A DNA stretch of 35,395 nucleotides, taken from contig CANPWM010000017.1 in assembly GCA_947584295.1 (NCBI GenBank), positions 1 to 35,395 of the forward strand. The letters run 5' to 3'. A program made the translations under genes and the position numbers. This document shows, one piece after another, positions 11,158 to 35,395 of the stretch (positions within the stretch are counted from its first letter, which is position 1; the number at the start of each line of letters is the position of its first letter). The notes under the pieces were generated by a model that saw only the letters and a program-made list of their open reading frames with translations, had not been told where the DNA came from and ran no database searches. The DNA is from an uncultured Oscillospiraceae bacterium (GTDB lineage Bacteria; Bacillota; Clostridia; Oscillospirales; Oscillospiraceae).

Positions 11158-12231
11158 TTATAGTAAATCCCGGCGGACGTAGACCTGGGCGGGGAGGATA
11201 TCGGATAGCTGGATCAGGAAGGCGGAGACGTCGTTTTTATAATCGGCCCGGAGGCGGGTGGAGGGGGGCGGCGTGACCCGGGGGAGGCTGACGGTGACGG
11301 AGGCCCCGTGGCCCCAGACGCTCTCCATCACGGCGCTGCCGCCGTGCATGGCGGCCACCCGCCGGACGATGCCCAGGCCCAGGCCAGCGCCGGCCTGGGG
11401 CTCCAGCTCCCGGGACGGGGAGGCGTAGGCGTTGAACACGTCCCCCAGAAGCTCGGGCCGGACGCCCCGGCCGTCGTCGGCGACGGTGATCCACAGGCTC
11501 GTTTTGCCCTGCCGCACGGAGACGGTGACGGTACTGCCGGGGCCGGCGTATTTCAGGGCGTTGGAAAAAAGCTGCATCAGCGCAAGCTCAATGAGCCGCC
11601 CGTCGGCCATGACGGGGATTAGCTCCGGGCCGCAGTCGCAGACGATGCTGGGGCGCTCCGGGGCCATCAGCTCCGTCACCGTGGCGGCCACGTCCTCCAC
11701 CAAGCGGCGCAGATCCAGGGCGGCGGGTTGGGGTTCGCTGTCCAGGCCGCAGAACACCCGGGCGAAGTTGTCGGCCATACGGGCCATGATGCAGGCGGAT
11801 TTGTCGCTTCTGGCCACGCTCATGGCGAAGGCCGGGGGGACGCTGTCCAGGCGGTCGTACATCAGGGAGATGGCGGTCAGGGCCGTGCCTACGCCGGAAC
11901 GGATATGGGCCGTGAACAGGCCCAGGGCCCGGCGGGAGGCGTCGCTGTCCGGCGGCTGGGGCCTCAGCGTGACGATCCGCCGCTCCCCCTGGCCGGAGGC
12001 CAGGACGGTGTAGAGGCCCCGGCCCAGTCTGACGGCTCCGGCGGCCTGGCCGGAGGCGGGGGCCAGCAGGCCCGGGTCGAAGATCTCCGCCGCCGGACGG
12101 CCGGTGAGATCCTCCATCAAAGCCCGCCGGGCGGCCTGGTTCTCATAGGCGACGATCCCGTTCTCCACCGCCAGCACCGGCTCCGGCAGGGCGTCCAGCA
12201 GGGTATATTCCTGTTTTTCGATACTATCCAT
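11158..12231 (-). CDS. Orphan sensor histidine kinase with PAS-like N-terminus
   Basis: The 357-residue protein has an N-terminal PAS-like segment (about 8-90; 'LLDALPEPVLAVENGIVAYENQAARRAL'), a helical dimerisation region (about 100-165) and a complete HATPase_c domain: N-box LFSNALKYA (N224), G1 box ADDGRGV (D252) and G2 box GAGLGLGIV (281-289). There are no membrane segments, so it senses something cytoplasmic or through a partner. The phosphoacceptor region is odd: H109 sits in FTAHIRSGVGTALTAI, without the usual HE(L/I)R.P order and with three extra residues. Autophosphorylation is therefore not assured. No response regulator is adjacent. A ribosome site GGGGGA lies right before the ATG. 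Kinase family is sure; signal and partner are unknown. Confidence 0.85.
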   Translation of the reverse strand: MDSIEKQEYTLLDALPEPVLAVENGIVAYENQAARRALMEDLTGRPAAEIFDPGLLAPASGQAAGAVRLGRGLYTVLASGQGERRIVTLRPQPPDSDASRRALGLFTAHIRSGVGTALTAISLMYDRLDSVPPAFAMSVARSDKSACIMARMADNFARVFCGLDSEPQPAALDLRRLVEDVAATVTELMAPERPSIVCDCGPELIPVMADGRLIELALMQLFSNALKYAGPGSTVTVSVRQGKTSLWITVADDGRGVRPELLGDVFNAYASPSRELEPQAGAGLGLGIVRRVAAMHGGSAVMESVWGHGASVTVSLPRVTPPPSTRLRADYKNDVSAFLIQLSDILPAQVYVRRDLL

Positions 12232-16387: not shown

Positions 16388-16441
16388 CCTACTTGTTCGG
16401 TAGGTTAGTATGATTATAGTACGGCGGCAGGGCGTTGTCAA
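16388..16441 (-). promoter_or_regulatory. metY promoter with palindromic operator
   Basis: On the minus strand TTGACA (16441-16436), 17 bases, TATAAT (16418-16413) is a perfect vegetative promoter. About nine bases past the -10, CCTAC-CGAACAA-GTAGG (16404-16388) is an inverted repeat over the expected start site, a position fit for a repressor. CCTAC/GTAGG half-sites recall operators of Rrf2-family (CymR-like) sulfur regulators; that link is inference. Confidence 0.8.
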
Positions 16442-16466
16442 GGGGGCGGGAGAAAAAATTTTCACA

Positions 16467-25661: not shown

Positions 25662-25701
25662 CCACAAGAAAAGACCGCCTTTCGGCGGTCTTTTCTTGTG
25701 G
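25662..25701 (-). terminator. Terminator of the tRNA-Thr transcription unit
   Basis: CCACAAGAAAAGACCGCC-TTTC-GGCGGTCTTTTCTTGTGG is a perfect 18-bp inverted repeat. On the minus strand it starts within the CCA end of the tRNA fragment and includes a T4-C-T2 tract. It is the native terminator of the former tRNA gene. Confidence 0.85.
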
Positions 25702-25744
25702 AGCTGCTACCCAGATTCGAACTGGGGACCTCATCCTTACCAAG
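25699..25744 (-). tRNA. 3' half of tRNA-Thr(GGU), an attachment-site remnant
   Basis: On the minus strand from 25744 the sequence can be laid out as a tRNA from position 32: anticodon loop TTGGTAA (anticodon GGT), 3' anticodon strand GGATG, variable AGGTC, T-stem CCCAG, T-loop TTCGAAT, CTGGG, acceptor strand TAGCAGC, discriminator T, CCA. All lengths are canonical. The 5' half is absent: instead of CATCC the anticodon stem is preceded by ACCAC and unrelated DNA, with no D-arm. This is not a working gene but the 46-base (to the CCA) duplicated core left when an element integrates into a tRNA gene at the anticodon loop. The intact tRNA should sit at the far end of the element. Confidence 0.88.
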
Positions 25745-25909
25745 TGGTTCGGAGCCTTAAATCCCTTGCGCCCCAACGGTTTTTGGCCCTTTCTGCTCCA
25801 AAAATACGGACCCAAAGGTGCTATTAAGTCCACTGCTTCCACCCGGTGATTTCCCCGTGTGGGTCAAAGTGTGGGTCAGCCCATCTCTGTTGGTGCCCAT
25901 TCAGAATCT

Positions 25910-25940
25910 GAATTTGTGTCATCACTGGTGACACAAATTC
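25910..25940. repeat. Perfect 12-bp inverted repeat near the element border
   Basis: GAATTTGTGTCA (25910-25921) and TGACACAAATTC (25929-25940) around a 7-base loop, without a T-run. Fourteen bases apart just upstream lie two copies of GTGTGGGTCA (25856-25865 and 25870-25879). The 300-base stretch 25745-26047 has no gene I can support; these repeats could be recombinase arm sites or an operator. Confidence 0.6.
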
Positions 25941-26047
25941 ATTGCCGGGAAAAAAGGGGAAGTAATTTTCTCCCTTCTGCCAAACAACTTCTTCTCGACT
26001 TTCCACCCCCTCTGCGGTATTGTGTGTTGCCAAAGGGGGAGACAAAA

Positions 26048-26323
26048 ATGGACAATATCATCAATGAACTCTACTACGGCAACATCCGCCCGGTTGAGCA
26101 AATGGGCGGGCTCACAGCAGAAGCGGCGGCTATTATGAAGCAGGTACACGAGAACGAGGACAAGCTTGAAGAGCGCCTCAACGAGCAGGAGAAGGAACTA
26201 CTTCACGCTATCCAGGATGACCGCTTCGATGCCGCCAGTATCATCGAGGAAAAACGCTTCCGCGAAGCCTTTATCCTTGGGGCAAAATTGATGGCTGAGA
26301 TTCTCACAGGAGGCCCTCAATAA
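26048..26323 (+). CDS. DUF6809-type small protein
   Basis: This 91-residue protein starts MDNIINELYYGNIRPVEQMG behind AAAGGGGGAGA. The opening 'LYYGNI.P.EQ', a charged helical middle (NEDKLEERLNEQEKELLHAI) and the closing 'RFREAFILGAKLMAEIL' are the pattern of DUF6809 family proteins, which are common on Clostridia elements and prophages. It is acidic, all-helical and has no catalytic motif. Function is unknown. The upstream in-frame extension to 25859 has no ribosome site and crosses the inverted repeat, so I leave it out. A GC-rich hairpin terminator follows immediately. Two decayed copies of this gene lie at 26437-26680 and 27656-27719, so the cassette was duplicated inside the element. 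The family name is from memory of its pattern and not searched. Confidence 0.75.
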   Translation: MDNIINELYYGNIRPVEQMGGLTAEAAAIMKQVHENEDKLEERLNEQEKELLHAIQDDRFDAASIIEEKRFREAFILGAKLMAEILTGGPQ

Positions 26324-26390
26324 TTGCGGGGGACCCCCTGCAATTTTTGGGAGGGGAATAGTATTAATAATACGAATGGCAATAAATATA
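26311..26390 (+). repeat. Direct repeat (copy 1) downstream of the DUF6809 gene, with terminator
   Basis: It includes the hairpin ATTGCGGGGG-A-CCCCCTGCAAT with following T's (26323-26348) and then GGGGAATAGTATTAATAATACGAATGGCAATAAATATA (given in part). The same order recurs at 27720-27799. The repeat marks the 3' flank of the duplicated DUF6809 cassette. Confidence 0.8.
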
Positions 26391-26436
26391 AAGCCCTTCC
26401 GAAAGACCGCTTCGCACGTGGTTTCTCCGTTTTGTC

Positions 26437-26680
26437 AATACGGTTTCGCTCAACTTTTCCGTCCAGTTGAACAGATGAGAGGGGTCACATCAGAAGGAAG
26501 GGAAATTCTGAAGTGGATACATCAAAATAAGAAAAAGCTGCGGGCGGCCCTCGATGGGGAGCGCCACCCTCTATGCAATAAGACTGTCTCGCCATATCTG
26601 TTTTAATGGGCAAGAGACGTTTTTGGGAGGCGCTTGGTTTGAGAGCGAGGCTGATGGTGGAGACATTTACGGATAAACGT
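26437..26680 (+). pseudogene. Decayed second copy of the DUF6809 gene
   Basis: The frame through 26606 reads LFRPVEQMRGVTSEGREILK and KWIHQNKKKLRAALDGE, parallel to IRPVEQMGGLTAEAAAIMKQ and VHENEDKLEERLNEQE of the intact gene. It then runs into unrelated codons and a stop (PLCNKTVSPYLF). A different frame resumes with GKRRFWEALGLRARLMVETF, parallel to EEKRFREAFILGAKLMAEIL. So the middle is lost and the frame broken, and the start region is also degraded. No terminator or ribosome site of the intact copy is kept. Confidence 0.75.
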
Positions 26681-26695
26681 CAATCACTCGTTAAT

Positions 26696-27022
26696 TTATT
26701 GCAGACAGTCGATGATTGCGTTCAGGAGAAAGACGACCTTTTCGCATTTTTCAGAGGAAAGAGTTTTGAGACGGCAGAGAATATATTCCTCAGGTGATTG
26801 TTCTGCCCCGAAGAGCAGGCTGTCGGAAGATACCTGCAGGGCGACGGAGAAAGCCCGGATGGACTCTGACGAAAGACCTGAGCGGCCGCGTTCGACTTCT
26901 TGAATGAAATTCGCACTGTACCCTGTCATGGCCGCTAACTTTTCCCGCGTCAGCTTTTTCTCTAACCTGTGTGCCTTGATTCGCCCACCTACTTCCACGT
27001 TGATATCCTTGACTTCACGCAT
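26696..27022 (-). CDS. XRE-family HTH repressor
   Basis: This 108-residue protein carries a Cro/C1-type helix-turn-helix at about 11-68: VGGRIKAHRLEKKLTREKLA, MTGYSANFIQEVERGRSGLS, SESIRAFSVALQVSSDSLLF. The C-terminal 40 residues are helical (PEEYILCRLKTLSSEKCEKVVFLLNAIIDCL), likely for dimerisation. It starts at ATG 27022 behind AAAGGTGG. Such small repressors typically control genes of the element they sit on. The stretch upstream (27023-27130) is AT-rich and bidirectional, with a TATAAT on the plus strand at 27122; I see no clear operator. Genes it controls are not evident, since its neighbours are pseudogenes. It appears intact. Confidence 0.88.
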   Translation of the reverse strand: MREVKDINVEVGGRIKAHRLEKKLTREKLAAMTGYSANFIQEVERGRSGLSSESIRAFSVALQVSSDSLLFGAEQSPEEYILCRLKTLSSEKCEKVVFLLNAIIDCLQ

Positions 27023-27180
27023 AGCGTCACACCACCTTTATACGTAGTGTAACCCATAAAAGATAATCAAAAAATACACACAAGTTTGTGAAAAAAATAG
27101 TAGCAATACGCCGGGCGATGTGTTATAATAAAAATTGTAAACTTAGTAAATCACTGCTTTATGTCCGAAAATACCAAAAA

Positions 27181-27268
27181 GAAGGGAGGCGCAATCCCAG
27201 CAATACCGCTGGAAGGCCTCCGTGTGCTCCAACAGCTTGCGCAGGACCCGGCGGTCTTAATCGTCCAT
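27181..27268 (-). pseudogene. Relic of a HepT-like (HEPN/DUF86) toxin start
   Basis: An ATG overlaps the end of the MntA-like relic: MDD, then a TAA stop (27259-27257), then in the same frame DRRVLRKLLEHTEAFQRYC before homology is lost. The 'ILxKLLEHxE' opening right after an MntA-type nucleotidyltransferase is that of HepT toxins. Both an early stop and truncation make it dead. The assignment rests on about 22 residues plus context. Confidence 0.45.
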
Positions 27269-27641
27269 AGATTGGCACCCCGCTTTCACGAATTTCACGG
27301 TCAATCCTGAAACCACTGTCGATTTGCCTGACGTCCAACAGATCGACCGGGGCCTCCAGAGATGAGGCCACGTCCTCCAAAAGCCCAAAAAACGCCAAGC
27401 CGCGAAGCCCACTGTCCACAAGGATGTCCACGTCACTGGGCGGCGTCGCGGTCCCTTTCGCGTAAGATCCGAAAAGCACGGCATGTTTGACATCGTTTCA
27501 CTCAAAAATAGGCATCAGGAGCTCCTTCAGCTCGGGGACGGTGTATACACCTTGCTTATGCGGATGCTCCTTCCTCCACGCTAATGCCGACGGCTGGATG
27601 TTTGCCTGCGATGTTATAGCATAAAGGCAAAAAAGCAACTT
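27261..27641 (-). pseudogene. MntA-like minimal nucleotidyltransferase antitoxin, interrupted by a stop
   Basis: In one minus-strand frame there is AITSQANIQPSALAWRKE, VYTVPELKELLMPIFE, a TGA at 27500-27498, then NDVKHAVLFGSYAKGTATPP, SDVDILVDSGLRGLAFFGLL, VASSLEAPVDLLDV and REIRESGVPIYG. GSYAKGTATPPSDVDILVD is the GSxxxGxxxxxSDxDLxV nucleotidyltransferase motif. The in-frame TGA right before the catalytic motif and the lack of a start for the 3' piece indicate a pseudogene. MntA proteins AMPylate and silence the HepT RNase; the partner remnant overlaps its end. An upstream HTH-like region belongs to the same frame. Confidence 0.7.
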
Positions 27642-27719: not shown

Positions 27720-27799
27720 TGGCCCCTCAAATTCTGCAGGGAGCCCTCTGCAATTTTCAGTAGGGAATAGTATTAACAAGACGAAAGGCAACAAATATA
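27720..27799 (+). repeat. Direct repeat (copy 2) downstream of the DUF6809 fragment
   Basis: GGCCCCTCAAATTCTGCAGG, GAGCCCTCTGCAATTTTCAG, TAGGGAATAGTATTAACAAG, ACGAAAGGCAACAAATATA track copy 1 at 26311-26390, including the terminator-like GCAGGG/CCCTCTGC hairpin. About 75-80 percent of positions appear to match by eye. Confidence 0.8.
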
Positions 27800-28252: not shown

Positions 28253-31200
28253 ATGAAATCGAAAAAAGCAGCGCAATTCCTCAGCGTATTACTGGCAATT
28301 TGCATGGTTCTGGTTGTACTTCCGATTCAAGCCGCAGCGGCGGATGATGAAGGAAATAACCAGATCGGTCAGGCGGCGGAGTGGGTCTATACTCCCAACA
28401 CACAGACAAATCTTGTCGCTTCGGCAGGGGCGCCGCATGTTTCGGCATCGGCGGATACACGCTCAAGCATCGGCGGAGCCTCCGACACTGTGCGCGTGCA
28501 TGTAACGGCCACTGATAAGGCCACTGGAAATGAGGTGGATGTTGAAGGAGCCGTTGTAAATCTTTATGTAGGCGGCGACTATATCCGTTCTTCTGAACCA
28601 ACAAACAGCAACGGATATACGAATGTCTCCCTTGCAGGCTTATCAACGGAACAGCGTCTTAACGCGACTGTTTCAGCCAGCAAGGTGGTCGCACGGGGTA
28701 AGGCAATAGATGGTACCGCCCGAGACAAGCTTTTCAATCACTTCCCCAAGGACGATTCCGGCGATTACTACCGCTACACGCTTGAGTTACATTCCGAAAC
28801 AATCGACGAAAACGGAAACTGGATAGGGACCGAGATTCCTGTGGGCAAAGAGTCAGGCAAGACGGACATCGTTTTTGCAATTGACGCCACTGGTTCAATG
28901 GAAGATGAAATCAATAACGTTAAGAATAATATTGCCAATTTTTCGAAAAGTCTCGATGAGCGCGGATTAGATATCAGATTTGCTGTTATTGAGTACAGGG
29001 ATATCACTGAAGACGAGGAGACAATCGTACATAAGGTTTCCGGATCTCAATGGTTTTCCAACAGTGACGATGTTGTGGAAACGCTGACGGCGATCAACGT
29101 TGATGGAGGCGGAGATGCACCTGAAACCCTGATAGACGCTTTGGGATATATTGCGGATAACAACCTGATGCATTGGCGCAGTGATGCGGACCGTTTTGCG
29201 TTTGTCTTAACAGATGCCGATTATAAAGTTGACAACAATTACGGCTACACCAGTCTTGAGGATATTACAAAAAAGCTCAATGATATGCATATTGTGACCT
29301 CCGTTATAACCGACAGCGAAAACCGCTCTGTATACAGCGGCCTGTTTGAGGGCACCGGCGGAATATATGCCAACATCTACTCCTCTTCCTTTGACGACGA
29401 GATGCTGAATCTGGCAAACAGCGTAGTTGAAACCGTCGTCAGGGATGTGGAGTTGGAGCTTCACGAGCCGAGAATGCTTGTCAATATGTCGGTGTGCTAT
29501 TTTGCAGACGATAAGACTTCTAAGTCGGAATCCTATAGAGACTCACTTAAAAAGACTTTAAGCGAGTATGCACACAGACTGGCAGAAACAACAGACGGCC
29601 ATGTTATACTTGATAATGTGCTGCTGTTTTCTACTGACAGCAAAGTGAACTTCTATGATACAAATAATATTGCTTCTATGGCAGATATTCGAATAGAAAC
29701 CGAGGTAGTAGTAGATAACTTTAATGTTCCAATAGGCTCTAACGCTGACGCCAACGGATTTTACACAGATGAAACGGCTGCAGCAAGCAACTCATCTTTC
29801 TCAGTTTCTAATAATTTAGTTGGCAGGCAGGCATTTAAGAGAATTCAATTAAGTGGCACCACGTACAGCTGGAATTTTGATTTTATTGATGATGTATGGC
29901 AATATTCCGCTACAATCATGCATGAATCAGGTCATTATATTCTCGGCTTTTTTGATGAGTATATGGATGGTAATTCTGTTACATGGACTACTGCATATAA
30001 ACCGTATCCCAATTATAATCAGACAAAGAACCATTTTGGGATTATGGATGGATACCATTATGACAAAGACATTGAAATGTCGAGAACTAATACTGAATAT
30101 GCATATTTGTCCTCTGGGGGCATTCGCACATATCAATTTAACTCGTTTGAAGAATCCTGTGAAGACACTTTAGCCGATTTTCTTACAACCGGCACAAATG
30201 TTCTTTTCAGAAATTCTTTTATCGATGAAAAAGGAATAACTCACCGCTATTCATATTATTCGCTTCCGACTAACGGCATCTTTTCTAAAGATGGAGACTT
30301 CAATCGATATAAGATTACATACACAAAGGTGCCTGGCACAAAAGACCGTACAGCAAGTTATTCCTATGCAGGTTTGGGCGAAGGTGACTTTATTTACATT
30401 CCAGCATCCAGTAGCGGAGAAGGCGGTGGCACACGGAGCATAAACGGTGCGGGGCCGTTATCTGGAAGCGTTAACGCAGCCTCCGGAGCAGAGACATCCG
30501 ACGCCCTTGCCAATGTATCTTGGGCCAACGACAGTGAAACGGTTTCACTTACAATTACCCCCGTTGACGGCTATACTTACAGCGTGGAAATGCGTGAATC
30601 CGGAGAGGCATTTTCTGCGGTGGATCTGATTGATAGTTCGGACGTATTGACCGCAAATCTTCCTATTACTAAGGGCGGACTTGCTGAAGTGAGGATCATC
30701 GCAGAAAAGGCCGGGGAAACAAAATACAATACCTATTACGTAGACCGCTCGGTAGATACGGATGTTGGATATATGTATTCTTCTGCCGATAACGGAACAA
30801 TGGCTTATGTAATGGCCGACGAGATGAACTCCTACACGTTTGTCGCAGATAATACAAAATACACCAACGGCGATTACCGCTCTGTCAGCCAGGCAACTCA
30901 CATTATAAGCGACAGCGGGAAAACCATTGACAGCGGTGAGATATACTCTGTCGCCGCTTATCTTGCGGAAATCGACTACACAACCTTGAGCTGGTTCAAG
31001 TTTGCCAACGGTAGCTGGAAAAAACTTGATACTGATTACAGCGAAGAGGAGAACATGAACATTGGCGCCAGGGCTGATCTGGACGGCGCCGGTATGTACG
31101 TTCTTATGGCTAAGCCCGCCCCTGTTGGTGGAGCCGAACCGACAAAGGATCTTCACGTTGTCCCGTTCGATCCTGAAAACGACCTTGACGCCACTGCGAC

Positions 31201-32743
31201 CCTTGCGTTTACCGACCCGAATACCACCAGCAAGTTCTACAATGTTTATTACAGCGATAAATCGTTCACCGACAAAAACGCAGATGGTGTTATAGTACGG
31301 AGCTTCTACGCTGATTTCGGCACTGAGCTTACGCTCAATCTGATCGAACGGAACCGCACAGTATACGCCGCAGTCGAGATCGTCTTGGAGGACGGCAGCA
31401 GATCCCCGTTAAGCGAAGTGATACTTGTCTCAGGTGAGGCCGATTCCGATGGTGATGGGCTACCCGATTGGTATTGCGACAAGTATCTGCTGTGGGACGA
31501 AGGTGATACCTCCAAACCCGTAGCTGAACGCGATCCCGACGGTGATGGCCTCACTAACCTTGAGGAGTACAAGGGAAGCTCTGATCCTACCAATCCCAAT
31601 GATCCTGTGCATACCACCAATATTCCGGTAGCATCAATCAGCGTCACACCTGACGCTGTCGAAATCGCAGTTGGTAAAACTAAGGAAGTCACCGCAACGG
31701 TACTTCCTGAAAGCGCAACAAATAAAAAAGTTCAGTGGTCATCTGAGGATGAGCAAGTCGCTACGGTTTCTGAGACTGGAATAATTCTTGCTAAAGCGCT
31801 TGGAACCACTACTGTTTATGCCGTGACAGCAGACGGCGGTTACTCAGCAGCTGTTAAGGTGACAGTTGTTTCCGGTGTATCTGGTCCCGGCGGCAGCGGA
31901 ACAGTTCCCCCGGCCCCTTCTGCCTATCCCACAACCATCACAAAGCCGGAACACGGCACCGTGAAGGCAAGCCCCGTTTGGGCTGTGACCGGCGAAAAGG
32001 TAACTCTGACCGTGACGCCTGACGACGGCTATGTGCTGAATTCTCTCGTTGTCACCGATAACAGCGGCAAGATTGTAGCTATCAGCGACAACGGCGACGG
32101 GACATACTCTTTCACCATGCCCCAAGGCGGTGTAACTGTAAACGCTACGTTTACGCTCAAGCCCTGCGACGGCGGCGATGATTGTCCGTCCCGCAATTAC
32201 ACCGATGTGGATCATACCGCTTGGTATCACGAGGGCGTGGATTATGCCGTCGCGAACAAGCTGATGGGCGGCAAAGCCGATGGTATCTTCGATCCCAAAG
32301 GCATCACCACCCGCGCGGAAATGGTGACCATACTCTACCGTCTGGATAGTGAATCCACTGTGACAAAGGATGTCAAGTTCGACGACGTTCCCGGCGGACA
32401 GTGGTACTCCGACGCCATCAACTGGGCTGCCGCCAATGAGATCGTGGGCGGTTACGGCAATGGCAAGTTCGGTCCGGACGACACCATTACCCGTGAGCAG
32501 ATGGCCGCAATCCTTTATCGCTACGCCAGCTACAAGGGCTATGACATGACAAAGCTCGCTGATCTGACCGGCTACACCGACGCCGATACGGTGAGTGATT
32601 GGGCAGTCACCGCTATGAGGTGGGCTGTTGCCGAGGGCATCATCAATGGTACAAGCACTACCACCCTCAGCCCCTCCGGCGACTCCACCCGTGCACAGGT
32701 AGCAACCATCTTCATGCGATTCAGCGATAACATTGTAAAATAA
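28253..32743 (+). CDS. SLH-anchored VWA and metzincin-like (CLCA-type) surface protein
   Basis: A 1496-residue secreted protein with a signal peptide (MKSKKAAQFLSVLLAICMVL to AAA, 1-30). An Ig-like region (about 60-150) leads to a von Willebrand A domain (about 206-395) with MIDAS D211-A-T213-G-S215 and D321 in LTDAD. Next, H557-E-S-G-H561-xxx-G565-x-F-D568-E-Y and a Met-turn GIMDGY (M598) form a metzincin-type zinc site; the same HExxHxxxGxFDEY spacing marks the CLCA metallohydrolases, which also carry a VWA domain. Then come beta-sandwich repeats, two DxDGDGL calcium loops (about 1063-1110), a BIG2 Ig domain (about 1123-1205), a TITKPEHGTV-type repeat and three SLH domains (about 1315-1490) binding cell-wall polymer. 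AAAGGAGA precedes ATG 28253. The first two thirds are AT-rich, the SLH end host-like. Protease activity is inferred. Confidence 0.88.
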   Translation: MKSKKAAQFLSVLLAICMVLVVLPIQAAAADDEGNNQIGQAAEWVYTPNTQTNLVASAGAPHVSASADTRSSIGGASDTVRVHVTATDKATGNEVDVEGAVVNLYVGGDYIRSSEPTNSNGYTNVSLAGLSTEQRLNATVSASKVVARGKAIDGTARDKLFNHFPKDDSGDYYRYTLELHSETIDENGNWIGTEIPVGKESGKTDIVFAIDATGSMEDEINNVKNNIANFSKSLDERGLDIRFAVIEYRDITEDEETIVHKVSGSQWFSNSDDVVETLTAINVDGGGDAPETLIDALGYIADNNLMHWRSDADRFAFVLTDADYKVDNNYGYTSLEDITKKLNDMHIVTSVITDSENRSVYSGLFEGTGGIYANIYSSSFDDEMLNLANSVVETVVRDVELELHEPRMLVNMSVCYFADDKTSKSESYRDSLKKTLSEYAHRLAETTDGHVILDNVLLFSTDSKVNFYDTNNIASMADIRIETEVVVDNFNVPIGSNADANGFYTDETAAASNSSFSVSNNLVGRQAFKRIQLSGTTYSWNFDFIDDVWQYSATIMHESGHYILGFFDEYMDGNSVTWTTAYKPYPNYNQTKNHFGIMDGYHYDKDIEMSRTNTEYAYLSSGGIRTYQFNSFEESCEDTLADFLTTGTNVLFRNSFIDEKGITHRYSYYSLPTNGIFSKDGDFNRYKITYTKVPGTKDRTASYSYAGLGEGDFIYIPASSSGEGGGTRSINGAGPLSGSVNAASGAETSDALANVSWANDSETVSLTITPVDGYTYSVEMRESGEAFSAVDLIDSSDVLTANLPITKGGLAEVRIIAEKAGETKYNTYYVDRSVDTDVGYMYSSADNGTMAYVMADEMNSYTFVADNTKYTNGDYRSVSQATHIISDSGKTIDSGEIYSVAAYLAEIDYTTLSWFKFANGSWKKLDTDYSEEENMNIGARADLDGAGMYVLMAKPAPVGGAEPTKDLHVVPFDPENDLDATATLAFTDPNTTSKFYNVYYSDKSFTDKNADGVIVRSFYADFGTELTLNLIERNRTVYAAVEIVLEDGSRSPLSEVILVSGEADSDGDGLPDWYCDKYLLWDEGDTSKPVAERDPDGDGLTNLEEYKGSSDPTNPNDPVHTTNIPVASISVTPDAVEIAVGKTKEVTATVLPESATNKKVQWSSEDEQVATVSETGIILAKALGTTTVYAVTADGGYSAAVKVTVVSGVSGPGGSGTVPPAPSAYPTTITKPEHGTVKASPVWAVTGEKVTLTVTPDDGYVLNSLVVTDNSGKIVAISDNGDGTYSFTMPQGGVTVNATFTLKPCDGGDDCPSRNYTDVDHTAWYHEGVDYAVANKLMGGKADGIFDPKGITTRAEMVTILYRLDSESTVTKDVKFDDVPGGQWYSDAINWAAANEIVGGYGNGKFGPDDTITREQMAAILYRYASYKGYDMTKLADLTGYTDADTVSDWAVTAMRWAVAEGIINGTSTTTLSPSGDSTRAQVATIFMRFSDNIVK

Positions 32744-32754
32744 GACTACGCTTA

Positions 32755-32786
32755 CTGAAGGGCGGGGCTTCGGCCCCGCCCTTCAG
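32755..32786 (+). terminator. Terminator of the surface protein gene
   Basis: CTGAAGGGCGGGG-CTTCGG-CCCCGCCCTTCAG, thirteen pairs, 11 bases after the stop, followed by TTTGTC. Its last bases run into the dispersed repeat. Confidence 0.85.
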
Positions 32787-33030
32787 TTTGTCAAAAAACT
32801 CAAATTCAACGTTTTTCCCGGTGGCATGTACGTCGGGAAAAAGCCCCTTTGGGGCCCCGTGCAATCGAAGATTGCATGGGGAGAAGAGGAGCCGTGCCCG
32901 CGCCTGAGCCCGACCGAAGGAAGGGCGAGGCAAAGCGGCTCGTGTGACAACGATGCAGGGCGACAGCGAGGAAATTGCGCGCGTATTTCGCAAAATTCAC
33001 GCAGAGTTTCCCGCATGTCCCCTATTGTCG
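32785..33030 (-). repeat. Dispersed repeat, long copy (FFPTYMPP type)
   Basis: The first 60 bases (32785-32843), read on the minus strand, match 22136-22199. The rest extends the unit with GCAATC-GAA-GATTGC and GC-rich sequence up to a hairpin at 33032. A minus-strand frame of 77 codons (MRETLREFCEIRAQF... PTYMPPGKTLNLSFL) covers it, but lacks a ribosome site and its end is the repeat, so I treat it as non-coding. The 600 bases from 32787 to 33390 hold this repeat, the hairpin at 33032, and a DUF6076 relic; nothing else is seen. Confidence 0.65.
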
Positions 33031-33031
33031 G

Positions 33032-33068
33032 AAACTCCCGGCCAAGCTTTATGTTTGGCCGGGAGTTT
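33032..33068 (+). terminator. Hairpin with T-tail after the long repeat
   Basis: AAACTCCCGGCCAA (33032-33045) pairs perfectly with TTGGCCGGGAGTTT (33055-33068), then TGCG. It looks like an intrinsic terminator, but no gene precedes it on the plus strand except the repeat. Confidence 0.6.
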
Positions 33069-33286: not shown

Positions 33287-33390
33287 TTAAGACCTTTTCC
33301 TGAACACCACACAGTTAGCACTGGCGTGACGAGATGCTGAGAGAATACAAATCTCCAGCTCCACAAAGAGGAAGTCACATAGAACAGTAT

Positions 33391-34353
33391 TCATTCTCCA
33401 CTCTTCCCAAGCCACTCCAAAAATTCTTCCTCCGAGATCACCCCCGCCTCGCAGGCGTCCTTCTTCCTCCGGGCCTCCTCGCCCCAAGCGTAGAAGGCGG
33501 ATGGCTCTATCTTCCCGGCCTTGATCCACGCAAAGCGTTTCTTGTACTCCCGGCGGTACGCCTTGAAGATGTCGTCCTCCCCGCGCCGCTTGGTCCACGC
33601 CATGATCGCGCCCACCTCCCGGCAGGTGCGGCCCTTCTTGTCGCAGACCCGGTCGCAATACTCCACGCCCCCGTGTCCCGTCACCGCGAAATACCGCCCG
33701 CAGTTCTTACAGACCCGCATCCGGACCTCACGCTTGACACACTCCCGGACGTGGTAGTCAATGATGTCGTACACCGTCTCTGGCACCAGCACCTCCGCGA
33801 AGTCACCTGAAGGAAGGAGCTCAAAGCTAAGCGGGTATGCCCTGAACCGAAACGCGCTCTCTCCGTCACGCAGATAGTAGTCCGCCATCTTCCGCATGAC
33901 GGGTCTCTGGTCACGGTCCATGTCGAGAACGTTGGCAAACAGCTCCCTGATCTGCTCCTGCATCTGTTTCAGATTCTCTGCCATCCGCAGCAGGGCACTG
34001 CGCTTCAACAGGTTCTCGCTGAAGTTCCCCAACGCCAGTGCCTGCCCGATCCGCCACGTCCAGTCTAAGCGAAGGTGTGAAAAATAGATGTGCCGCTCCT
34101 CCAGCTCCGCCAATTCAGACAGGGCCTCCTGCGCGAACCGCTTGTCCTGGGTCAAGGTCAGCGACCAGAGCTCGTCGGAAATCTTTTTAAGCAGAGGCGC
34201 GAGTGCCTCCGTATCCAAATCCAAAAAGGCAAGCAGACTGCCGGGGAACGGTGACTTCTTCTCGTGGTACTCCAGGGCATCCAAATTTTTTATCGACATG
34301 CCATAGAACTCGGTCCCCTCAGCGATGTAAGTTCTGAAATCGTAGTTGAGCAT
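33391..34353 (-). CDS. DUF6076-type zinc-cluster protein
   Basis: This 320-residue protein starts MLNYDFRTYIAEGTEFYGMS behind GGAGGGG. It is mostly helical, with a cysteine-rich knuckle at about 215-244: C215-x2-C218 (RVCKNCGRYFAVTGHGG), C233-x3-C237 (EYCDRVC) and C244 (GRTC), very likely a zinc site. The tail (WTKRRGEDDIFKAYRREYKK, RFAWIKAGKIEPSAFYAW, EEEFLEWL) is the recurrent ending of DUF6076 proteins, which are frequent on Clostridia integrative elements. Biochemical function is unknown; the zinc knuckle resembles those of nucleic-acid-binding proteins. It is divergent from the HTH gene at 34543 and separated by an iteron-like region. I see no strong promoter on its own strand. A relic of a second copy lies 100 bases beyond its 3' end. 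Confidence 0.82.
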   Translation of the reverse strand: MLNYDFRTYIAEGTEFYGMSIKNLDALEYHEKKSPFPGSLLAFLDLDTEALAPLLKKISDELWSLTLTQDKRFAQEALSELAELEERHIYFSHLRLDWTWRIGQALALGNFSENLLKRSALLRMAENLKQMQEQIRELFANVLDMDRDQRPVMRKMADYYLRDGESAFRFRAYPLSFELLPSGDFAEVLVPETVYDIIDYHVRECVKREVRMRVCKNCGRYFAVTGHGGVEYCDRVCDKKGRTCREVGAIMAWTKRRGEDDIFKAYRREYKKRFAWIKAGKIEPSAFYAWGEEARRKKDACEAGVISEEEFLEWLGKSGE

Positions 34354-34542: not shown

Positions 34543-34920
34543 ATGATTTGGGGAGAACGATTTTATCAGATGAGCAACGCCATCTTCCACTACGACCTGA
34601 CGCCGACGGAGTTCATGGTCTACAACTATCTGGTCAGCTGCGCCGGTCAAAAGGATGTGTGCTGGCCGAGCATAGGCAGGATCGCGCTCAACTGCAACTG
34701 CTCGGAGAACACGGTCCGCAAGGCAATCGACGCGCTCGTCAAGAAGCGGTTCATCCGCAGGGTGGCGACATACGAAGACTGGCAGGACGGCCGGAGCCGT
34801 CAAACAAACAACACATATTACATCCTCGACCTGCCGCAGGTGCAAAGCGCCACCGTCTCCGCCCCCGTAAAGAGGTACCGGCAGGTCGAAAGCACCACGG
34901 CCTCACCACCTCCGCCGTGA
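34543..34920 (+). CDS. HTH-domain protein of integrative elements
   Basis: This 125-residue protein starts MIWGERFYQMSNAIFHYDLT behind AAAGGAGGG. It has a winged-helix domain at about 15-85 of the helix_turn_helix_36/replication-initiator kind: LTPTEFMVYNYLVSCAGQKD, VCWPSIGRIALNCNCSENTV, RKAIDALVKKRFIRRVATYE, followed by SRQTNNTYYILDLP. This opening is typical of the first gene in the transfer or replication block of Clostridia elements, ahead of RHH and relaxase genes. It is probably a regulator of that block or an initiator-like protein. The operator in its own promoter suggests autoregulation. The tail after residue 98 is low in complexity (SAPVKRYRQVESTTASPPPP) and may be worn. An RHH gene starts 309 bases downstream. 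Confidence 0.85.
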   Translation: MIWGERFYQMSNAIFHYDLTPTEFMVYNYLVSCAGQKDVCWPSIGRIALNCNCSENTVRKAIDALVKKRFIRRVATYEDWQDGRSRQTNNTYYILDLPQVQSATVSAPVKRYRQVESTTASPPPP

Positions 34921-35229: not shown

Positions 35230-35395
35230 ATGAGCAAGGAAGGACAAGAACGGATCACATTTCGGACAAGTGCGAAAACAAGGTCCGCCATCGAGCAGTT
35301 GATGGTGGATGAGGGTATCCGGAGCATGAACGAGTTCATCGAACACGCGGTCAACCACTACATCGATTACATCCTGATGACAAGAGCGACCACAC
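35230..35395 (+). CDS. Ribbon-helix-helix protein (3' end outside window)
   Basis: An open frame of 55 codons starts at ATG 35230 behind AAAGGAGG: MSKEGQERITFRTSAKTRSA, IEQLMVDEGIRSMNEFIEHA, VNHYIDYIL. The pattern beta strand (ERITFRTS), helix, SMNEFIEHAVNHYI second helix is the MetJ/Arc-type RHH fold. RHH proteins in this position of mobile elements are often relaxosome accessory proteins (MobC/TraY-like) or plasmid copy and partition regulators. Which one cannot be decided until the downstream gene, outside the window, is seen. Confidence 0.75.
   Translation, partial: MSKEGQERITFRTSAKTRSAIEQLMVDEGIRSMNEFIEHAVNHYIDYILMTRATT

Follow-up and report, generated by a model that had tools for sequence, protein, structure and literature searches.

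The gene and its domains

The window analysed here is the whole 35,395-nucleotide stretch of contig CANPWM010000017.1 (assembly GCA_947584295.1), from an uncultured Oscillospiraceae bacterium that, to judge by its relatives, probably dwells in the gut or rumen. At 28253..32743 it carries a gene for a large surface protein that combines a VWA domain, a metzincin-like protease site and C-terminal SLH repeats. We consider it likely that this protein is a cell-wall-bound zinc protease of the CLCA-type metzincins with an independently gained VWA domain, encoded by a chimeric gene that is cargo of a tRNA-Thr-integrating mobilisable element. The parts of this reading that are shown are the sequence features, the homology found without the motif, the predicted fold, the chimera and the geometry of the island. 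The gene and its parts are as follows.

28253..32743, + strand: SLH-anchored VWA-metzincin gene, ATG start, open reading frame of 1496 amino acids
28253..28339, + strand: probable signal peptide, ending at about residue 29 (read by eye)
28865..29323, + strand: VWA domain, residues 205-357, with D211-A-T-G-S215 resembling a metal-ion-dependent adhesion site (MIDAS)
29444..30388, + strand: metzincin-like catalytic domain, residues 398-712, from homology and a structure model
29921..29962, + strand: HESGHYILGFFDEY, residues 557-570, with zinc ligands H557, H561 and D568 proposed by analogy with IgAse, and proposed general base E558
30038..30055, + strand: Met-turn GIMDGY with Met598
31442..31549, + strand: two DxDGDG motifs resembling calcium loops, at residues 1064 and 1094
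31625..31861, + strand: Big_2 Ig-like domain, residues 1125-1203 (Pfam)
31868..31919, + strand: head/tail junction, about residues 1206-1223, from the homology boundaries to genomes G266 and G012
31925..32161, + strand: InlB-type repeat, Flg_new_2, residues 1225-1303 (Pfam)
32192..32719, + strand: three SLH repeats, about residues 1314-1489 (Pfam)

The original prediction, made from the letters alone, described a VWA domain ahead of a protease site, with calcium loops and an SLH tether, and this architecture is confirmed. A Pfam scan of the whole protein places the VWA domain above cut-off with two profiles (PF25106, 39.5 bits against 27; PF00092, 35.0 bits against 23.8), and the MIDAS-like motif and a VWA fold in the structure model agree with it. 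Three C-terminal stretches match SLH with 119.3 bits (cut-off 20.8). The Big_2 domain, the InlB-type repeat and the SLH repeats all exceed their Pfam cut-offs and all lie C-terminal to the protease site. The DxDGDG loops correspond to a place in homologue L041 where PF18884 (TSP3_bac) matches below cut-off (E 0.0037).

A metzincin-type site and its conservation

The proposed active site is an igalysin-like variant of the metzincin HExxH motif, with one extra residue before the glycine. An HExxHxxxGxFDEY motif had been predicted at residues 557-570 with a Met-turn, GIMDGY, about 30 residues farther on, and both are in place. A DNA pattern for HExxHxxxGxxDEY has a single occurrence in the window, at 29921-29962, and none in 100 dinucleotide shuffles, and Met598 of FGIMDGY lies 30 residues past Asp568.

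Across 394 genomes of the order, a protein search returned the own genome, two strong homologues and 20 weak matches (E 0.006 to 0.29), which are taken as chance. The strong homologues, both from Oscillospiraceae, were found independently of the motif. One is 50% identical (genome G266; locus L147, contig SVRV01000001) and the other 40% (genome G381; locus L126, contig JAFXXH010000077, from sheep rumen). Both keep HExGHYxxGxxDEY and GxMD, as the original prediction had expected of close homologues. A protein search of 199 related genomes and a profile search of 391 genomes of the class each found the own genome only, and protein and profile searches found no relative in viral contigs, plasmids or phages. 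A peptide scan of the genome_contigs collection returned nothing, which is weak evidence of absence because close relatives are present in that collection.

Scanning genome_contigs for the DNA pattern of HExGHYxxGxxDEY gave at least 117 stretches (L043-L159) from many phyla. The matches listed contain 118 motif-bearing open reading frames; 18 were left out of the domain alignments as incomplete and 100 were kept. The methionine of the Met-turn, which lies outside the search pattern, is invariant in alignment A4 (48/48 rows, 47 of them picked from loci fetched by the motif pattern) and is at least 90% conserved in a wider set of 101 rows from the matches listed.

Among the matches listed, proteins with HExGHYxxGxxDEY are spread over many phyla of bacteria and also occur on an archaeal contig (Thermoplasmata, L054, the only one), and many have no detected VWA domain. 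A contig labelled Bacteroides (L108, NZ_JAQVBV010000087.1) encodes a protein with dockerin and Big_3 that groups with the clostridial homologues; the contig is perhaps mis-binned. The motif pattern found 10 stretches in viral contigs, nine with an open reading frame bearing such a motif or a truncation of it. Two viral-contig stretches (L031 and L038) are listed in the masked comparison with M64 peptidases.

Relationship of the catalytic domain

Between about residues 390 and 1120, Pfam finds nothing above cut-off. NCBIfam gives nothing on the protease region except a chance photosystem match, and phmmer with the protease segment against the PDB gives chance matches only (E 0.26 or worse). The original prediction linked the site to the animal CLCA proteins. 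The published CLCA consensus, as quoted in the available part of PMC3650047, is HExxHxxxGxxDEY. The motif alone does not indicate CLCA, because the M64 (igalysin) IgA peptidases have the same spacing (PMC12237041, in excerpt). Since all sequences had been selected by the motif, the zinc motif was masked in the comparisons that follow.

An eight-sequence profile (the window protein, L114, L147, L089, L108, L126, L080 and L045) was compared by masked hhalign with 17 of the 22 proteins that carry their VWA domain after the site and with seven M64 sequences. It matched the former at 97.5% over 192 columns, with five column-shuffled controls at 0.0 to 0.5%. It matched the M64 set at 0.1%, the level of the controls, and at 64% when unmasked. 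Therefore the domain groups with the bacterial CLCA-type proteases, and its likeness to M64 is due to the motif. An iterative masked search reached 101/101 members; a VWA-after row, L111, joined early, and the search was therefore rerun without it. In that rerun, a masked profile of 25 rows detected 58 of the 76 non-members at E<1e-3, among them L143, L058 and L087 from Shewanella and Pseudoalteromonas, but 0/505 shuffled and 0/101 reversed controls. The bacterial CLCA-type proteases (CLCA_N; Shewanella, Pseudoalteromonas, Synergistota and others) share with the window protein HExxHxxxGxxDEY, the Met-turn, the presence of a VWA domain and, with the motif left aside, about 190 columns of homology in the catalytic domain.

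A first structure model took 570 residues, VWA and protease together. A fold search with it listed only VWA matches, and the catalytic domain was therefore modelled alone. The domain-only model has a predicted metzincin fold with a confident active-site helix, which bears only indirectly on the convergence of H557, H561 and D568 that the original prediction had set as its test. By this model the overall fold would resemble that of the adamalysin/ADAM metzincins, whereas the site has one more residue before the glycine and an aspartate, not a histidine, as proposed third ligand; sequence identity is 8-16% among the matches listed.

Several results weigh against the CLCA-type assignment. The catalytic region has no Pfam match, either at E<1 in the whole protein or at E<0.01 as a segment. 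The Foldseek template modelling scores are low (0.33-0.38 by query in the six best rows, root-mean-square deviation 6.3-8.4), and the first model, of VWA and protease jointly, is weaker (predicted local distance difference test score 68.7, predicted template modelling score 0.57). At E<1e-3, a masked hmmsearch with the eight-sequence profile recovered 20 of 93 others; L143 and L087 were among those it did not recover. A control with shuffled flanks and the motif retained gave 45/93 matches at the same threshold; unmasked matches between subfamilies are therefore little proof and were dropped as evidence.

The link to the animal CLCA proteins holds in part. The metzincin-type site with CLCA spacing and the masked homology to bacterial CLCA-type proteases stand, but the Pfam CLCA family itself (PF08434) has no match in the protein at E<1 and none anywhere in its genome at E<=10. 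The profile matches 24/101 members at E<=0.01. Ten VWA-after relatives scanned singly gave nine matches at E<=1, several only around the motif and none above the 25.6-bit cut-off. Because direct Pfam CLCA matches are weak throughout, the animal link depends on Lenart et al. 2013, who in the available part of their paper place bacterial CLCA_N proteins, one from Shewanella, with human CLCA1 (PMC3650047). From architecture and genus, we infer that these bacterial CLCA-type proteins are the CLCAs of that paper. Animal CLCA1 and its relatives share the motif spacing with the window protein and join a metalloprotease and a VWA domain in one secreted protein (PMC6851300, in excerpt). Unlike them, the window protein has an SLH anchor, and it lacks a PF08434 match and a cysteine-rich region (its only cysteines are residues 17, 415, 636, 1075, 1305 and 1311) and carries the VWA domain on the opposite side. 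For these last three reasons it is, by its sequence, a CLCA-related metzincin and not CLCA proper.

Origin of the VWA domain

The VWA domain does precede the protease site, the reverse of the CLCA order, as the original prediction noted. It appears not to be the CLCA domain moved to a new place. Among 119 motif open reading frames listed, the VWA domain lies before the site in four (the window protein, L114, L147 and L089), after it in 22, as in the bacterial CLCA-type proteases, and is not detected in 93, which is no proof of absence because many of these frames are truncated at the ends of the 8-kb stretches and the VWA profile was built from five seeds. The four VWA-before rows form one clade in the tree (100/85). 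Their sister, L126, lacks the domain, and the alignment closes cleanly at its position; no VWA domain is detected in L108, L080 or L045, which adjoin the clade, either. A profile of the four VWA domains scores 43-159 bits against those of five other proteins of the same bacterial family, one with a subtilase-like domain (by eye) and one with SLH repeats. Its best score against the canonical CLCA-type VWA domains, which are of a different type, is 17.1 bits, and 20 of those 22 are unlisted.

Since the domain is nearer to VWA domains of surface proteins from its own family, and the sister protein lacks one, the simplest reading is that it is probably an independent insertion of a local VWA domain and not a relocated CLCA domain. 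In L208 (G090:C90), from another member of the bacterial family, a VWA domain of this type follows a subtilase-like domain (by eye). No description of the VWA-before architecture was found in the open-licence literature. More tentatively, and at somewhat under an even chance, the gut-clostridial proteins would be a second, convergent pairing of VWA and metzincin, in which a local VWA domain was put ahead of a VWA-less CLCA-type protease and the resulting head is exchangeable. If so, mobile islands can equip the cell wall with one surface tool or another.

Proposed function and alternatives

The protein would be secreted, held on the cell wall, and cut proteins near the cell. In the catalytic domain, which we assign to the bacterial CLCA-type metzincin superfamily, H557, H561 and D568 would bind zinc, E558 would activate water and Met598 would make the Met-turn. 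The N-terminal VWA domain with its MIDAS-like site may hold protein ligands or substrates, or regulate access to the site. The beta-sandwich and calcium-loop modules would form a stalk, and the SLH repeats would attach it to a cell-wall polymer. The zinc, the activity, the role of the VWA domain and the substrate are parts that we infer; for the substrate, a gut protein that is extracellular or sits on a surface is most likely. For CLCA1, the available part of PMC6851300 describes the fragment with catalytic domain and VWA as the more active one, which cleaves MUC2 and requires calcium. This serves as an analogy for the window protein and not as evidence.

Three other explanations were weighed. 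A diverged M64 enzyme (igalysin, IgA-peptidase), in place of a CLCA relative, would account for the common HExxHxxxGxxDEY spacing (PMC12237041, PMC3650047, both in excerpt). The best PDB match of a motif-bearing 101-domain profile is to M64 IgA proteases (E 2.9e-6), and 13/101 members match PF09471 at E<=0.01. PF09471 does not match the window protein, however, and the similarity to M64 disappears on masking while that to the CLCA-type set persists. Between the motif and residue 745 only C636 is present, as against the three-cysteine zinc site described for M64. The igalysins (Thomasclavelia ramosa IgAse; 3p1v, 4df9) share the zinc motif and the Met-turn, and differ in the lack of similarity beyond the motif, in the cysteine zinc site and in their accessory domains. 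M64 chains are not among the best 50 rows of either fold-search list, though lists that short do not exclude them. We regard an M64 origin as improbable. Still less credible is a genuine CLCA that arrived by transfer from animals or from other bacteria and in which the VWA domain moved from behind the protease to its front. The presence of the same two domain types in one protein and the relatedness of the catalytic domains fit such a transfer, but the VWA-less sister of the VWA-before clade and the far better scores with own-family VWA domains speak against it.

A different objection concerns activity and not descent: the metalloprotease domain may be catalytically dead and the protein an adhesin, for which VWA and SLH would be enough for binding. 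Both modules are common in adhesins. The CLCA family has members with substituted active sites, according to the available part of PMC3650047. In the window protein, however, every proposed ligand is intact, and so are the general base and the Met-turn; the same holds for the two homologues found without the motif, and a dead domain seems unlikely to us. An active cell-wall-bound protease of the CLCA type remains the preferred reading.

The available part of PMC3650047 describes bacterial CLCA relatives, naming Chloroflexi, Synergistetes, Proteobacteria and a single archaeal genus; it calls all of these aquatic and free-living and proposes a transfer from animals. The motif-bearing stretches listed here already span many phyla, and one branch belongs to clostridia of the gut and rumen, where mucus and IgA occur. 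If active, these enzymes would be candidates for the cleavage of surface proteins, of the host or of microbes, in the gut. The VWA gain, apparently an independent one, provides a natural test of what that domain contributes to a CLCA-type protease.

A chimeric gene with a possibly exchangeable head

The gene is, by its sequence relationships, a chimera of two differently shared parts. The head (residues 1-1205) is 49% identical to the protein of G266, where the homology stops at 1205. The tail (residues 1211-1496) is 79% identical to a protein of G012, a genome of the same genus, and this homology begins at residue 1211 or, in DNA, at 31919. The G012 protein (L176, G012:C58) has a head of BspA-type leucine-rich repeats with the same flanks and the same SLH tail; its DNA matches both flanks of the window gene (25967-27445 at 87%, 31919-32833 at 85%). 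Different heads, a protease and a leucine-rich-repeat one, are swapped between species at one place. Related tails, 63% and 55% identical, are found on two other heads in G015 and G1111. The head has a GC content of 46.4% and the tail one of 56.8%; left of 25.6 kb, seven of eight sampled genes have 64 to 66% and one has 62%.

In place of SLH repeats, the nearest relatives of the head end differently, with dockerin in L114 and L108 and a hydrophobic, apparently transmembrane segment (by eye) in G266. The gene joins a head common to clostridia of other families (residues 1 to about 1205) to an SLH tail native to the genus. The shared SLH tail with different heads represents a domain-level exchange of surface proteins at the cargo site of a mobile element.

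The integrated, probably mobile island

The original prediction placed the gene on an integrated element, and the surrounding sequence bears this out. The other features of the island are the following.

25699..25744, - strand: exact copy (46 bp) of the tRNA-Thr(GGT) 3' end, an attachment-site remnant at one island end
25859..26323, + strand: DUF6809 gene, within the island
26696..27022, - strand: HTH_3 (Xre-type) regulator gene, within the island
33391..34353, - strand: DUF6076 gene, first of the element backbone
34543..34920, + strand: HTH_36 gene, element backbone

The remnant matches in 46/46 bp, and contig C75 of the same genome ends in an intact tRNA-Thr; the window itself holds no complete tRNA and no Rfam match. 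The island of G005 has the order tRNA-Thr, genes resembling integrase, relaxase and a small DNA-binding protein (all three by eye), HTH_36 homologue, about 7.5 kb of cargo and a second 46-bp copy, and its cargo is a sugar ABC transporter (by eye). G006 carries the 46-bp copy, an integrase-like gene, an HTH_36 homologue and restriction-like cargo (by eye), and G030 has a related backbone beside tRNA-Tyr. With the DUF6076 and HTH_36 genes at 33.4-34.9 kb and the end of the contig at 35395, the protease gene occupies the place of the cargo. The integrase and relaxase of this island copy are not within the window, which stops at that contig end; by eye, both genes are present in the related islands of G005 and G030. 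By its sequence context the gene is cargo, with a tRNA-Thr remnant on one side and the backbone of an integrative element on the other, and it would move with a tRNA-Thr-integrating mobilisable element. Backbone homology starting near 33388 had suggested a gene outside the mobile element, a reading dropped in view of the tRNA-Thr remnant at 25699 and of the cargo position in G005 and G006.

Copies of the tRNA-Thr 3' end bound islands in several genomes of the genus (L222 at 2893-2938 and 11448-11492; L223 at 2483-2528 and 16412-16457), and the cargo varies between such islands. Just 3' of the gene, at 32782-33034, lie several dispersed repeats, each about 80 bases long, with matches at many sites across the genus, the own genome included. 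A related repeat lies around the DUF6809 gene, at 26310-26460 and 27722-27799, and is found in other islands of the genus as well.

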